IMG/VR virus record: IMGVR_UViG_3300032116_000787
Span: 1-33,199 of that record
Strand: one strand, 5' to 3'
DNA length: 33,199 bases
DNA from: a virus
Shown: one piece after another, positions 22,449 through 27,689 of the stretch
Position numbering within the stretch: position 1 is the stretch's first letter
Layout: each line of letters begins with the position of its first letter
Program-made: the position numbers and the translations under genes
The notes under the pieces: model-generated
Told to the model about the DNA's origin: nothing
The model's input: the letters and a program-made list of their open reading frames with translations, nothing else
Database searches by the model: none

Positions 22449-22601
22449 ATGGACACCCTGCTAGGCATCGCACAAGTGGTCGCCACGTTCCTGCTCCTGC
22501 CGGCCATTGTCACGGTGCTAGTGCTGCTGTCCCTGGTGGACTGGCGCGAAGCGTTCCGAACCGGGCGGTTCACCGAAAAGGGCTACCGCCGGCGCGACTA
22601 G
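22449..22601 (+). CDS. small single-pass membrane protein, 50 aa
   Basis: ATG 22449 starts MDTLLGIAQVVATFLLLPAI and continues through a second hydrophobic run (VTVLVLLSLV), giving a membrane segment of ~25 residues (residues ~4-30), then a basic cytoplasmic tail (FRTGRFTEKGYRRRD). It lies behind the strong hairpin, so it needs its own promoter, which I could not place. Its TAG (22599-22601) overlaps the stop codon of the convergent sigma-like gene on the other strand. A role at the host membrane, such as exclusion or lysis control, is possible but unproven. Confidence 0.6.
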   Translation: MDTLLGIAQVVATFLLLPAIVTVLVLLSLVDWREAFRTGRFTEKGYRRRD

Positions 22602-23317
22602 TCGATACCCGGGTACTGCCCGCCAAGCTCGCGCTGGATGGCACGGAGCGCACGACCATGACGCCGGGACACGGCCTGCTGTGTTGTCCCATACACGCGC
22701 GCCACATCGGACTGTGAACGCGGCACCGTATCCCTCTCCTTGTGGGTTTCCAATGGCACGGGACCATAAATCGCCACAAGGATCGCCTGATGCTCCGGTT
22801 CGATCGCCCGAACCGCCACTTGCAGATCGGCACACAGCGCCGCCAGATCGTTCCCCTCGGCAGGGTCGGCTTTGCCACGGCCCCGCGTATTGTCATCCGG
22901 TGTCACCACCAGCGACGTGTCACGGGACGGATCAAGCGCGACCGGCAGCAGAGCCTCAATCAACCCCGTGTCGTAGAAATACTCATCCTCGACACGGTAA
23001 CCGGACTGGCGGGCCTTCTCCCGCCGGCAATACCGCTCCCCCGCACGCGACAACCGCTTACCAAGCCGCGACCACGACGCCCGCAGCACAGGCTTAGGCA
23101 CCTCGCCCATGCCCTCCGGCGCCTCCGGTTCCAGTAGCCGCCACAGCGCCTCATGGTTGCGCAGGGCGTACACCCACAGCTCTTGGAGCACGTCGTCGTA
23201 CTCCACCCACGTCCCATACCGGCGTGCCAACGTGGCAGCCACCGGGGGGAGGTGGTCACTGATACCGGCCACGTACTCCGGGTCGGCGTGCTCCACACCC
23301 AGCGTGTCCGCCCCCAT
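22598..23317 (-). CDS. sigma-70-family-like factor, 239 aa
   Basis: ATG 23317 is coupled to the exonuclease stop (TGATG); a longer frame into that gene is rejected. Residues ~30-50 (RYGTWVEYDDVLQELWVYAL) look like sigma region 2. The C-terminus (RSQSDVARVYGTTQQAVSRR, then HGRALRAIQREL) is a region-4 helix-turn-helix. The middle ~100 residues are charged and contain a polar loop. It could redirect host RNA polymerase to late phage promoters, or act as an anti-host transcription factor. Its final TAG overlaps the stop of the convergent gene. Confidence 0.7.
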   Translation of the reverse strand: MGADTLGVEHADPEYVAGISDHLPPVAATLARRYGTWVEYDDVLQELWVYALRNHEALWRLLEPEAPEGMGEVPKPVLRASWSRLGKRLSRAGERYCRREKARQSGYRVEDEYFYDTGLIEALLPVALDPSRDTSLVVTPDDNTRGRGKADPAEGNDLAALCADLQVAVRAIEPEHQAILVAIYGPVPLETHKERDTVPRSQSDVARVYGTTQQAVSRRHGRALRAIQRELGGQYPGID

Positions 23318-24069
23318 CACCGCACACCCCTGGTGGTCGCACGACCCGGAAGCGCCTTGTTGCCACGGCACCAGCCACCACAGTCCTGACACTGAAACCT
23401 CTGATACGCGGACACCTTCGTACGCGCCACACCCCGGGCATGAAGCCTGGCCCCACCGCACTGCGGGCACCCATCAGGGCGGCCAGCGATCGCACCAACA
23501 TGCGGGCCGTCCGGCACCCACCCCTTAGACCACAGGGCTTCCAAAACTGCTTCGCACAGGATCACGTCATGCTCGTTGTACTCGCGCATCAGCCGGCGTG
23601 ACGGGCCGTGCCCGTCCAGTACCCGCAGCCACAGCCCGTGCCCCTCATGGGAAACCTTCTGCCCCAGCCCCAGGACGCGGGCAATGTGGTCGAGCCGGTT
23701 AGAGGCGAGGAAAAACCGGGAACGCACGGCACGCAGCGTGTCAATCGTCTGGAACGGTGCCGGCGGGCTCATGCCCGCCAGGAGGAACGCCGTGTTGAAC
23801 TGCTTGACATCGAACGGCGCGTTGTGCGCCACCACAACGTCCGCATCCGACAGCAGCTTGTGCGCCCGTTCCAGCATCCCCGCCTGCCCGTGTTGCCACT
23901 CCGATGAGAAATGGACACGGGGCTTGCCGTACCACTTCGCCGCGAAACACAGGAGGCGCGAGGTTTCGAGCACTTGCGCGAGGCCAAAGTTCTGTTCCCG
24001 CAGACCCCACCCGGAGAGGGTGAGGGGCGCGGTTTCCACATCGATGACGAGCACGCGGGGTTCGGTCAC
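23317..24069 (-). CDS. DEDD 3'-5' exonuclease with C-terminal zinc ribbon, 250 aa
   Basis: GTG 24069. Exo I motif: VLVIDVETAP (D10, E12). Exo II: VVAHNAPFDVKQFN (D87). Exo III-like: REYNEHDVILCEAV. These are the metal ligands of DnaQ/RNase T-type exonucleases. Residues ~205-240 hold CPQCGG and, 24 residues further on, CQDCGG, a zinc ribbon, so the enzyme probably reads nucleic acid or a partner protein with this tail. It may proofread for a polymerase not seen here or trim ends in recombination. The ribosome site is poor; a GGAAGGG lies ~14 nt upstream. Confidence 0.8.
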   Translation of the reverse strand: MTEPRVLVIDVETAPLTLSGWGLREQNFGLAQVLETSRLLCFAAKWYGKPRVHFSSEWQHGQAGMLERAHKLLSDADVVVAHNAPFDVKQFNTAFLLAGMSPPAPFQTIDTLRAVRSRFFLASNRLDHIARVLGLGQKVSHEGHGLWLRVLDGHGPSRRLMREYNEHDVILCEAVLEALWSKGWVPDGPHVGAIAGRPDGCPQCGGARLHARGVARTKVSAYQRFQCQDCGGWCRGNKALPGRATTRGVR

Positions 24070-24147: not shown

Positions 24148-24561
24148 CTACGCAAGGGGGGATGCTGCCGCTTCCCGTGCAGCCCGCCGCATCGCCCGCA
24201 GCTCACGCTTCCGCGCCGCATCAGCCCCCGACGCGACACGCTTGATCCCCGCCCGCCGTTTCGCCTCCGCACTGCACGCCGCGCACCGCTTCTGCGACCA
24301 ATCCCAATGCTCCGACCGCAGATGCAACCCCGCACCGCACATTTCCTTCCGTGCCCCGGTCACCAGCCGGCGCAACTGCTCCACCCGCAGACCGGCCCAC
24401 ACGCCATGCGTTTCACGATTGTCGATCGCGGCCCGCAAACATGCCTCACGGGACAGGCACCGGGTTTGGCAGAACCGGACCGCTTCGGTTTCCTGCTCGT
24501 AACTGTCCGGGTAGAACAGGTCCGGCTCGGGGTGGTTACGGCACGCCCACTCACTCAACAT
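24148..24561 (-). CDS. WhiB-family iron-sulfur regulator with extra zinc-binding tail, 137 aa
   Basis: ATG 24561 has a good ribosome site (AAAGGA) and overlaps the methyltransferase stop by 7 bp. Four cysteines at residues 7, 31, 35 and 41 and the GVWAG turn (53-57) are the WhiB signature for a 4Fe-4S cluster. The inner spacing is CxxxC, whereas most WhiB proteins have CxxC. After the core, residues ~75-96 contain C75, H80, C93 and C96, resembling the zinc knuckle of HNH-type domains. The tail is Arg/Ala rich and basic. WhiB proteins act with the host principal sigma factor; phage versions can interfere with host WhiB. It supports an actinobacterial host. Confidence 0.85.
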   Translation of the reverse strand: MLSEWACRNHPEPDLFYPDSYEQETEAVRFCQTRCLSREACLRAAIDNRETHGVWAGLRVEQLRRLVTGARKEMCGAGLHLRSEHWDWSQKRCAACSAEAKRRAGIKRVASGADAARKRELRAMRRAAREAAASPLA

Positions 24562-26030
24562 CCCAGGTTCCTTTCCATATCATCCAACACACGTAGCGCA
24601 AGCACCGCCTGCTGCGGCACCACGCCATTACCCAGTGCTTTCAACTGCTGGTTACGGGTCAGGCCGATCGCCGGGTCGGTGACGTGACCGGCGGGCAGGC
24701 CCATCAGCCACTCCACGAACGGCGGGCTCAGGCGGGGTCGTCCGTTCGCTCCCGGCTCGGTGGGGGCGGGGGCGGGTCGTCCGACGACGTGCTCCCAGCG
24801 GGCGATGGCGGGGGCGTACTGGCCCCAATCCGTGCCAGCGCGTTCCCTAGGTTCTGCGGCTGATCCAGCGGGCGCTCCCACACCGTCTGATTGCGTTCCT
24901 CGCCGTTCTGCGCTCGCGGCGTCGGCAGGAGGCTGACCGTCGTCCGCAGATCCATCCCACCGTCGCCGTGATGGCCCGCGCCGTTCGTATCCGACGTGCG
25001 CGGCGTCGGTAGCAACGATGAAGATCCGGGCGCGTCCGTGGGCAGCTCCGGCATCGGCAGCGCGAACAACTCCCCACCGCGCGTCATACCCGAGGCGGGA
25101 AAGGTCGTTGACAACAGTGTTGAGTGCGTATCGCTGAACAGGTCGAGTTGCGGGACCGTCCACTCGCCGTCCACAAGCCGGGCAATCAAAGTTGCCCCAG
25201 GCGGCGGGGGTGCGGCCTTCCGGCTCGGACCCTTCTTGTTCAACGACTTCAAGCGACGGTGTAGCCGCTGCGCCTCGTCCCACCCCTCGTCCGTCCAGCG
25301 CCGGTCGTCCCCCCGGTACTTCGGCTGCTGCTGGCGCAGCTCCTCGACCGCGAGCGCCACCTGCGCCTGCTCCCGCTTCAACATCAGGTGCGGAAGCACC
25401 CGTCGCAGGAACCTCGCAGCCTCCTGGCCGTGGAGGCGCCAGGTCACCACCGCGTCCCACTTCTCCGTCGCTGCGCGGCCCTCCGCGACGATGCCCCCGT
25501 ACTCGTCCCGCATCGCCTCCAAGACGGCCCGCGCCTTCTCCGTCATCCCGAAGTCCACTCGTGGGCCGGCCGAACGCTTCCCCATCGTCAGAAGGACGCA
25601 GCCCTCCCCGTCCAACAGGCCAGCCGCATACGCATCGATCCTGGGGTTCATCGAACATTCCTCCTGAGCTGATTAGGCCGCGCACGTTTTCAAGAACGAC
25701 AAGCGACGGGCGCAGCGCCCGGATCGCCTCAACGATGTAGGGCCACAGGTGACGCTCGTCCTTCACGCCACGACGTTTGCCCGCGTGGCTGAACGGCTGG
25801 CAGGGGAACCCGGCGGTGAGGATGTCGACGGGCTCGACCTCCCACCACTTTGCGGTCGTCAGGTCCCCCAGGTTCGGCACGTCGGGCCAGTGGTGGGCGA
25901 GGATGCGCGAGGGCGCGTCGTCGTACTCGCAGAACCAGGCGGGCGTGGCCCCGGTGCATGCCTCCACGGCGAGGTCGAGGCCGCCGTAGCCGGAGCAGAG
26001 GCTCCCAATGCGCAGTTGATTATTCAACAT
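24555..26030 (-). CDS. DNA cytosine-5 methyltransferase with a long insertion, 491 aa
   Basis: ATG 26030 follows the 50-aa gene's stop by 2 bp (TGACCATG); an upstream extension of 68 codons is the wrong frame of two small genes. Motif I IGSLCSGYGG (8-17), motif IV GFPCQPFS (catalytic Cys ~76), motif VI LENVRG (~112-117), motif VIII GAAHGRARIFIVA (~327-339), motif IX-region RLSPPFVEWLMGLP and motif X RNQQLKALGNGVVPQQA are all present. Between VI and VIII lie ~150 extra Gly/Arg/Ala-rich residues with poor GC3; in this stretch another frame encodes a LAGLIDADG endonuclease (25651-24728). It probably modifies phage DNA to evade restriction, or regulates. All motifs are intact, so it may be active, with the insert as a loop. 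Confidence 0.85.
   Translation of the reverse strand: MLNNQLRIGSLCSGYGGLDLAVEACTGATPAWFCEYDDAPSRILAHHWPDVPNLGDLTTAKWWEVEPVDILTAGFPCQPFSHAGKRRGVKDERHLWPYIVEAIRALRPSLVVLENVRGLISSGGMFDEPQDRCVCGWPVGRGGLRPSDDGEAFGRPTSGLRDDGEGAGRLGGDAGRVRGHRRGGPRSDGEVGRGGDLAPPRPGGCEVPATGASAPDVEAGAGAGGARGRGAAPAAAEVPGGRPALDGRGVGRGAAATPSLEVVEQEGSEPEGRTPAAWGNFDCPACGRRVDGPATRPVQRYALNTVVNDLSRLGYDARWGVVRAADAGAAHGRARIFIVATDAAHVGYERRGPSRRRWDGSADDGQPPADAASAERRGTQSDGVGAPAGSAAEPRERAGTDWGQYAPAIARWEHVVGRPAPAPTEPGANGRPRLSPPFVEWLMGLPAGHVTDPAIGLTRNQQLKALGNGVVPQQAVLALRVLDDMERNLGC
24728..25651 (-). CDS. LAGLIDADG homing-endonuclease-like protein overprinted on the methyltransferase, 307 aa
   Basis: ATG 25651 lies inside the methyltransferase gene in another frame and has a near-perfect ribosome site, AGGAGG, 8 nt upstream. 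Residues 7-18 (AYAAGLLDGEGC) are a LAGLIDADG motif. The following ~110 residues fit the single-motif family (EKARAVLEAMRDEYGG; FLRRVLPHLMLKREQA). A single motif implies a homodimer. Codons in this frame are strongly GC3, while the methyltransferase frame there is not. From residue ~140 the gene reads the methyltransferase motif VIII and target region in its own frame (SGMTRGGELFALP; SLLPTPRTSDTNG), still with high GC3. It could be a mobile element lodged without breaking the host gene. Confidence 0.75.
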   Translation of the reverse strand: MNPRIDAYAAGLLDGEGCVLLTMGKRSAGPRVDFGMTEKARAVLEAMRDEYGGIVAEGRAATEKWDAVVTWRLHGQEAARFLRRVLPHLMLKREQAQVALAVEELRQQQPKYRGDDRRWTDEGWDEAQRLHRRLKSLNKKGPSRKAAPPPPGATLIARLVDGEWTVPQLDLFSDTHSTLLSTTFPASGMTRGGELFALPMPELPTDAPGSSSLLPTPRTSDTNGAGHHGDGGMDLRTTVSLLPTPRAQNGEERNQTVWERPLDQPQNLGNALARIGASTPPPSPAGSTSSDDPPPPPPSRERTDDPA

Positions 26031-26032
26031 GG

Positions 26033-26185
26033 TCAGCTTCGGTGGTTTCGGTGTAGCCGGCGGAACCGCCACACCGGCCAGCGTGTGTCTCCGTGGGCGG
26101 TGGCCTCGTAGTAGGCGCGGCAGCATCGCTCGCACTCGGGGAGCAACGTGTCGGGGTTGACGTGCGGCATCGGCGGGAGGGTCAC
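26033..26185 (-). CDS. small protein with Cys pair, 50 aa
   Basis: GTG 26185 overlaps the upstream TGA (GTGA) and ends 2 bp before the methyltransferase start. Product: MTLPPMPHVNPDTLLPECER, then CCRAYYEATAHGDTRW and a basic end (WRFRRLHRNHRS). Amino acid composition and tight packing support it; the same DNA in the methyltransferase frame is Arg/Pro nonsense. Function unknown. Confidence 0.6.
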   Translation of the reverse strand: MTLPPMPHVNPDTLLPECERCCRAYYEATAHGDTRWPVWRFRRLHRNHRS

Positions 26186-26283
26186 GCCTCACCGTCCGGC
26201 TCTGCGTCGAGGATGCCGAAAACGGCGCAGGCACACCCGTCCCCGGTCCAGAAGTCGCAGAGCTCCTGCCCGCACCTGCTCAC
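26182..26283 (-). CDS. micro-protein, Cys-rich, 33 aa
   Basis: GTG 26283 overlaps the stop of the 163-aa gene, and its own TGA overlaps the next GTG. Product: MSRCGQELCDFWTGDGCACA, then VFGILDAEPDGEA. Four cysteines in 19 residues suggest zinc or redox binding. It is too short for homology calls; coupling is the main support. Confidence 0.55.
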   Translation of the reverse strand: MSRCGQELCDFWTGDGCACAVFGILDAEPDGEA

Positions 26284-27146: not shown

Positions 27147-27689
27147 TCACGGGAACTTGTAGCCAAGGGCGGCGGCAGCTCGCCGGCCGCAGACCGGCCA
27201 CGGCGCCAGCCACGGTTCGCCCACGCGGGAGCGGGTGGAGCGGTTCGCCACGGTGATCTGCTCGGCGCGCGTCGCCTGCCACGCGTAGGGGGCGAAGTCG
27301 GTGCCGCCCCACGACCGCCAGGTGGACGGGAGGAACTGCAAACCGCCGTCGAATAGGCCGGTGTTGAGGCTCCATCGGCCGGACGACTCGCAGGCGGCGA
27401 TGCGGTCCCACAGGCGGGCGTGCCGCAGGTCGAGGGCCTTACCGGACGTTTGCCTAGGCTTAGTTGGGGAAATTGCCCGGTTAGTTGAGGACCGGCTCGC
27501 CCGCGTCACCGTCACCGTCCGCACCGGGCCAGGGACGGTGACCTTGACCGTCGCCGGGGGTGCGGTGACGGTCACGGTCGGCGTCGGCCGTGATTGCGCG
27601 TAGTTGTCGATGCTCACGAAGGCGTAGGCCATGACGCTAAGCGCGACGCCGACCAGGAGCATCCATGCCGCTTGCTCGCGGCGGCTCAC
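27147..27689 (-). CDS. membrane-anchored Rpf-like peptidoglycan-cleaving enzyme, 180 aa
   Basis: GTG 27689. Residues 7-27 form a membrane anchor. A Val/Thr/Pro stalk of valine-threonine repeats follows (~35-62), then a basic linker. Residues ~90-180 are a transglycosylase-like resuscitation-promoting-factor (Rpf) domain: LWDRIAACESSGRW (catalytic Glu 101), FDGGLQFLPSTWRSWGG, QATRAEQITVANR, and a paired Cys in WPVCGRR. Rpf enzymes cut actinobacterial peptidoglycan. With an anchor it would act at the cell envelope, either in lysis, or in infection/wall remodelling. It lies outside the virion operon, and no holin or classical endolysin is seen in the window, so it is the only lysis candidate here. 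Confidence 0.85.
   Translation of the reverse strand: MSRREQAAWMLLVGVALSVMAYAFVSIDNYAQSRPTPTVTVTAPPATVKVTVPGPVRTVTVTRASRSSTNRAISPTKPRQTSGKALDLRHARLWDRIAACESSGRWSLNTGLFDGGLQFLPSTWRSWGGTDFAPYAWQATRAEQITVANRSTRSRVGEPWLAPWPVCGRRAAAALGYKFP

Follow-up and report, generated by a model that had tools for sequence, protein, structure and literature searches.

Homing endonucleases usually spare the gene that they occupy because they are housed in an intron or intein that splices itself out. The locus considered here raises the question of how such a parasite might live inside a conserved gene with neither. It lies in a window of 33,199 nucleotides, which is the whole of IMG/VR viral contig IMGVR_UViG_3300032116_000787; the GC content at the locus is 68%. 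A preliminary description, made from the letters of the window, had proposed that a LAGLIDADG endonuclease gene is overprinted within a C5 methyltransferase gene. The proposal is followed here through the window and its relatives in phages and other sources.

The methyltransferase gene and the gene within it

The methyltransferase belongs to a continuous open frame (24555-26234) with a likely ATG at 26030; this frame is referred to as frame 0, or f0. All of motifs I-X, including I, IV (PCQ), VI (ENV), VIII, IX and X, are intact in f0 (Table 1), and by these conserved motifs, read in a single frame, the predicted product qualifies as a C5-cytosine DNA methyltransferase. The source is apparently an actinobacterial phage, since a WhiB-like gene lies directly downstream. 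Genes for an RNase_T-like exonuclease, a transglycosylase-like protein and, weakly, a sigma-70-like protein also point to such a phage.

Table 1. Features of the methyltransferase locus and its surroundings (positions in the window)
Feature	Position	Strand	Basis or remark
C5-cytosine methyltransferase, frame 0 (f0), 491 aa	24555-26030	(-)	PF00145 7.4e-35, phrog_363 1.5e-70, M.HhaI 6.8e-14
Motif I region	25989-26006	(-)	
PCQ motif	25788-25805	(-)	
Motif VI	25668-25691	(-)	
Motif VII	25074-25094	(-)	
Motif VIII	25020-25049	(-)	
Motif IX	24693-24713	(-)	
Motif X	24615-24638	(-)	
Second-frame ORF, 307 aa, ATG start: endonuclease fused to LLPTP protein	24728-25651	(-)	+1 frame of methyltransferase
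Shine-Dalgarno AGGAGG, 8 nt before ATG 25651	25660-25665	(-)	
LAGLIDADG endonuclease domain, I-MsoI/I-CreI group	25220-25651	(-)	phrog_5046 1.3e-24; I-MsoI (3fd2) 1.4e-6; alignment
LAGLIDADG motif AYAAGLLDGEG	25601-25633	(-)	
Second-frame LLPTP protein region	24728-25186	(-)	phrog_1008 5.8e-15; kept in 54 relatives
SGMTRGG of LLPTP protein	25073-25093	(-)	
LLPTP, two copies	24992-25015 and 24908-24931	(-)	
Reading of insert in f0, 179 aa, between motifs VI and VII	25131-25667	(-)	neutral in relatives
CVCGW, first Cys pair of insert in f0	25620-25634	(-)	overprints LAGLIDADG motif
CPACG, second Cys pair of insert in f0	25170-25184	(-)	
WhiB-like gene	24148-24561	(-)	
RNase_T-like exonuclease	23317-24069	(-)	
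Sigma-70-like protein, weak	22598-23470	(-)	
Transglycosylase-like gene	27147-27689	(-)	

The second-frame ORF lies entirely within the methyltransferase gene. It is, as first described, a complete gene with its own AGGAGG ribosome site, and both frames stay open for more than 900 bases. The match to phrog_5046 covers residues 7-143, and the endonuclease makes up the first ~145 residues only; because of this match and that to I-MsoI, the N-terminal half can be classed as a putative single-motif LAGLIDADG endonuclease of the I-CreI/I-MsoI group. Residues 163-292 match phrog_1008, a family annotated as 'DNA methyltransferase'. The endonuclease does occupy an extra stretch of the methyltransferase, as had been claimed, but between motifs VI and VII rather than VI and VIII. 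The contrast in GC3 also held when computed by frame: over 25651-25220 the endonuclease frame has a value of 0.90 and the methyltransferase frame one of 0.47, compared with 0.85 in the methyltransferase N-terminus.

When synonymous codons of the 307-codon frame were permuted, the methyltransferase frame remained open in 0/5000 trials. In the reverse test, with the codons of the methyltransferase permuted, the second frame was open in 2.6% of trials; when only the LLPTP part was considered, the value was 8.9%. Any one case of this kind is weak in GC-rich DNA, and the weight of the argument therefore rests on relatives.

The second-frame LLPTP protein

The preliminary description took the whole 307-residue ORF as one parasite gene. 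This did not survive comparison, the C-terminal half being a widespread second-frame protein that occurs with or without the endonuclease. In 54 distinct relatives (GC 41-74%, with and without endonuclease, most of them found through the methyltransferase N-terminus) the +1 frame is open through motifs VII and VIII and on into the variable region, where the pattern ends; the sequence ...SxTxPxSGMTxxGxLYELP...LLPTP... is recognisable. The comparison shows that a predicted second-frame protein exists without the endonuclease; since it is present either way, the parasite appears to have entered a pair of genes that overlapped beforehand, at the 5' end.

Several tests bear on the reality of this second frame. 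At 21 low-GC loci the +1 frame is open in 21/21 and the +2 frame in 0/21, while in an N-terminal control +1 is open in 0/21. LPTP is seen in 51 of the 54 relatives as against 1.6 expected given the f0 residues. The codons for LGYDARW of motif VII in f0 read SGMTRGG in +1, and in GC-rich loci the tyrosine of LGYDA is encoded by TAT by 19 to 3, compared with 32 to 111 for all their tyrosines, in keeping with the methionine of SGMT, which requires TAT.

Substitution patterns differ along the gene. Over motifs VI-VIII, omega is 0.28 (low GC) and ~0.5 (high GC) for f0, and 0.67 and 0.92-0.97 for +1. The +1 values there are not below the N-terminal control (0.67/0.92 versus 0.62/0.95), so that +1 constraint over VI-VIII rests on the openness, motif and codon-choice tests. 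Between VIII and IX, by contrast, omega is 0.32 and 0.44 for +1 and neutral for f0 (0.82-1.14).

Starts with ribosome sites occur at two fixed positions. The low-GC group has GAAAGG..ATG, whereas a second group has GTGAGAGGACTACTCAGTG, which lies within motif VI. In alleles of Gordonia and Mycobacterium phages that are filled with the endonuclease insert, the GTGAGAGGACTACTCAGTG start is lost and replaced by GGAGG..ATG at the right end of the insert, where it overlaps or adjoins the endonuclease stop. Endonuclease and second-frame protein are fused in the window and at most other loci.

The layout of the methyltransferase motifs varies among relatives. In L008, L012, L024, L052, L054 and L061, f0 stops soon after motif VIII and motif X is on the +1 protein; counting L007 with these, the second-frame protein bears IX and/or X where f0 stops after VIII. 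The annotation of phages Phanphagia and Priya has two overlapping 'DNA methylase' genes with this split layout. LLPTP modules are also found in f0 between VIII and IX, the target-recognition position, in L001, L003, L004, L006 and L011. From the split layout and these f0 modules, we infer that the LLPTP protein is a chain of the methyltransferase, possibly its target-recognition part; this is the least certain step in the argument. A different reading accepts the endonuclease but gives the LLPTP protein no part in methylation; it might, for instance, be an antirestriction or regulatory protein in its own right, linked to the methyltransferase only through the DNA that encodes both. Searches of Pfam and NCBIfam gave no match for relatives of the LLPTP protein, and in the window this protein is without IX-X, both of which would suit such a reading. 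It fits poorly with the relatives in which the LLPTP protein should complete the enzyme by supplying IX and/or X, and with the modules at the target-recognition position, and we regard it as unlikely, though a serious contender.

Programmed frameshifting would join the pieces into a single chain, with motifs I-VIII of the methyltransferase followed by the +1 LLPTP region and then by IX-X in f0. Amino-acid constraint does pass from f0 to +1 and back to f0, and in 23 loci the second-frame stop precedes motif X by a fixed distance, either 89 or 92 nt. However, two shifts would be required, the second-frame protein has separate ribosome sites and starts, and split relatives have separate genes. 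Moreover, f0 is open between VIII and IX (median P 0.014 at low GC), which a shifting ribosome would not need; it is expected if f0 itself must reach motifs IX and X. Frameshifting is thus improbable.

Other irregularities have been seen in this group. In the five loci with f0 modules, LLPTP modules change from +1 to f0 along the gene, as if indels shuffle them. The methyltransferase of Gordonia phage Hans (L002) is annotated as three genes (5, 6 and 7); its motifs IX and X are in another frame from I-VIII, unlike those of the closely similar Inspectinfecti, and the gene is probably frameshifted. In L104 (3013-3999) and L106 (1256-2491) the second-frame protein ends in a LNPTWVEWLMGFPLGWT-like motif IX, and f0 has its own end.

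Endonuclease-in-methyltransferase loci in other genomes

Database scans yielded 14 distinct loci with the endonuclease inside a methyltransferase. They comprise the window, Gordonia phages (L001, L004 and L005), Mycobacterium phage DotProduct (L003), viral contigs (L103, L104, L105, L106, L110, L111 and L126) and bacterial metagenome assemblies (L183 and L184). A genome scan for the endonuclease found two metagenome assemblies only, and a plasmid search gave no match. At 14/14 loci the endonuclease is read in +1 with respect to the methyltransferase and shares a common site between motifs VI and VII; an insert in the methyltransferase frame only was seen at none of them. Ribosome sites precede most of the starts. 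In Getalong (L005 / L109) the insert is retained, the gene has lost motifs VII-VIII together with the LLPTP region, and IX-X are on a separate ORF.

All 14 embedded loci have f0 open over 125 codons, and none has the third frame open. Among 96 free-standing relatives (91 of them below 55% GC), either shifted frame is open in none. In codon permutations, the probability that f0 is open given the endonuclease residues is 0.025 for the window, <0.0005 for L103, 0.0005 for L126, 0.005 for L106 and 0.0065 for L184. Values per locus range from <0.0005 to 0.2, and their product over 11 clades is ~1e-22, a figure that overstates the case since the loci share ancestry and are not fully independent.

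The window has no close relative, and selection was therefore measured in Gordonia, Mycobacterium and other relatives, each difference across the insert being classed by its effect in both frames. In four Gordonia/Mycobacterium loci omega across the insert is 0.24 for the endonuclease frame (purifying) and 0.93 for f0 (neutral), so that the methyltransferase amino acids over the insert would be free to vary as long as stops are excluded. The comparisons show both frames at the insert to be kept open, apparently by selection, and the endonuclease frame to be constrained. Chance in GC-rich DNA, where stops are rare, would account for an open second frame with only one frame translated, the methyltransferase being dead or the second frame silent. 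The GC content at the locus and the permutation values of 2.6% and 8.9% are what this explanation has in its favor. It becomes very unlikely once relatives are considered: conservation of the second frame extends to loci of 41-50% GC, at which a frame would hardly ever be open by chance; of the embedded loci below 55% GC, 3/3 have f0 open across the insert; selection on the endonuclease frame is purifying; and f0 motifs I-X are intact in the window.

The insert as read in the methyltransferase frame

Read in f0, the insert is hydrophilic, with 13% hydrophobic residues (VILMFWY) compared with 27.5% in the rest of the methyltransferase. C-x-C-G occurs at its left end in 16/16 loci (11 clades), and C-x-x-C-G follows ~130-150 residues later in all 16. 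Given the residues of the other frame, the codon choice for the cysteine pairs has P 0.053 (CxCG) and 0.037 (CxxCG) in the window; products over clades are 2e-9 and 8e-14, respectively, the second being partly post hoc since that pair was chosen after looking. The analysis shows a loop whose f0 reading appears neutral apart from stops and cysteines. Cysteine pairs placed in this way, where a hydrophilic loop begins and ends, could form a zinc knuckle. Matches of the insert to Pfam zinc ribbons in L103 and L126 fell below threshold. A DNA pattern scan for CxCGWP codons returned two known loci and an unrelated contig, L267.

Splicing and mobility of the insert

Endonucleases of the I-MsoI/I-CreI group are usually intron-borne, and the insert adjoins a conserved motif, a position typical of introns and inteins. 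Rfam gave no match to intron RNA in the window or 11 relatives, and Pfam showed no intein in the insert as translated in f0. A group I/II intron was dropped for want of a recognisable intron RNA, and an intein for want of a Hint splicing domain in the host frame. An undetected intron or intein that carries the homing endonuclease and is spliced out ahead of any methyltransferase activity is very unlikely, since f0 is open at 14/14 loci, which a spliced intron would not need, and conserves its cysteines. The view that the parasite overprints the methyltransferase without splitting it is thus upheld, as far as reading frames and homology searches can tell.

Mobility is seen where alleles with and without the insert can be paired, as in Keitabear (L004) and ChadMasterC (L011), Inspectinfecti (L001) and Phinally (L006), and DotProduct (L003) and Phanphagia (L007). 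What sets the filled alleles apart from the empty ones is an insert of ~490 bp, located at the motif VI (ENV) codons GAAAACGT, which form its left border. No border had been visible at first; this is true of the window by itself, but the relatives supply one. The inserts of DotProduct (Mycobacterium) and Inspectinfecti (Gordonia) are 86% identical, compared with 69% for the methyltransferase N-termini. The stretch downstream of the insert is also ~85% identical, and neighboring sequence has therefore moved along with it. DotProduct and Phanphagia have N-termini that are 95% identical, and the insert is present in only one of them. These pairs show that the insert has evidently moved between phages, and the difference between filled and empty alleles is the pattern expected of homing.

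Proposed arrangement

Taken as a whole, the best explanation, and a probable one, is that two polypeptides are read from this DNA. The methyltransferase would be translated straight through, as I-VI, a flexible loop bounded by cysteines, VII-VIII, a flexible linker and IX-X. The loop between the two cysteine pairs would be the shadow of the endonuclease. The +1 product, an I-MsoI-like homing endonuclease joined to an LLPTP-repeat protein, would be initiated at a separate ribosome site that closely follows motif VI, and presumably both products are made. The endonuclease may cut methyltransferase alleles that lack the insert and thereby cause it to be copied into them. The cysteines may bind zinc and hold the ends of the loop together, leaving the methyltransferase able to fold, and the LLPTP protein may work with the methyltransferase, possibly as its target-recognition chain.

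Dual coding would then apparently be what spares the host gene, since the parasite's DNA is also open in its other reading, with conserved cysteines on either side. If true, a parasite can live inside a conserved gene without splicing, and there are now enough examples for testing. A broader proposal, which we hold only tentatively, combines a widespread family of phage C5-methyltransferases whose target-recognition chain is a separate +1-frame protein, f0 being an unconstrained linker there, with a homing element whose dual-coding insert provides both endonuclease and Cys-clamped loop, with no splicing.

Comparison with known systems

I-MsoI and I-CreI are encoded in chloroplast group I introns. 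The window endonuclease is similar to them over ~130 aa and has, like them, one LAGLIDADG motif; unlike them, it has no intron detected around it in the window.

This kind of arrangement is known: a 2025 paper (PMC11855218) described HNH endonucleases hidden out of frame in the methylases of phages. In the ShiLan type, which includes Applejack gp54/55 (PMC12613952), the endonuclease is in another frame of a phage methylase, the host frame is open through the insert, no intron or intein has been found, and the element is mobile between phages, all as here. The ShiLan endonucleases are HNH enzymes with zinc fingers, no ribosome site was detected for them, and the phages covered infect Mycobacterium. 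The window locus has instead a LAGLIDADG endonuclease, with no HNH domain with zinc fingers, as well as a ribosome site and fusion to a second conserved +1 protein, and the insert family as a whole has the cysteine-bounded loop and many kinds of source. ShiLan gp65 is the methylase of the out-of-frame HNH paper, and ShiLan gp70 matches the second-frame protein described here. The text of PMC11855218 makes no mention of Gordonia, DotProduct or out-of-frame LAGLIDADG enzymes.

Methylases of the Taj_79 type in F-cluster phages (Gosselin et al. 2023, PMC9957025) also have a lone LAGLIDADG with no detected intein or intron. There the LAGLIDADG is described as lying in the translated methylase protein itself, hence in frame, and as vertically inherited, while here it is out of frame. 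Two-chain C5 methyltransferases are represented by M.AquI and M.EcoHK31I; M.AquI has motifs I-VIII on one chain, and part of the variable region with IX-X on another (PMC3404938). The six split relatives in which f0 stops soon after motif VIII share this layout, but in the window a single f0 chain has all the motifs, and the gene for the second chain overlaps that of the first in a different frame. No description of a LAGLIDADG out-of-frame insert, a Cys-bounded loop or the LLPTP second frame was found in open-licence PMC papers, and within that literature these three features are new relative to the known out-of-frame HNH cases.

The LLPTP protein represents a long conserved overlap in many annotated phages, where it is inconsistently named 'DNA methylase', and a role in methylation specificity is testable. 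In more than 100 public phage records the gene pair is annotated variously as one gene, two overlapping 'DNA methylase' genes, or a hypothetical protein.
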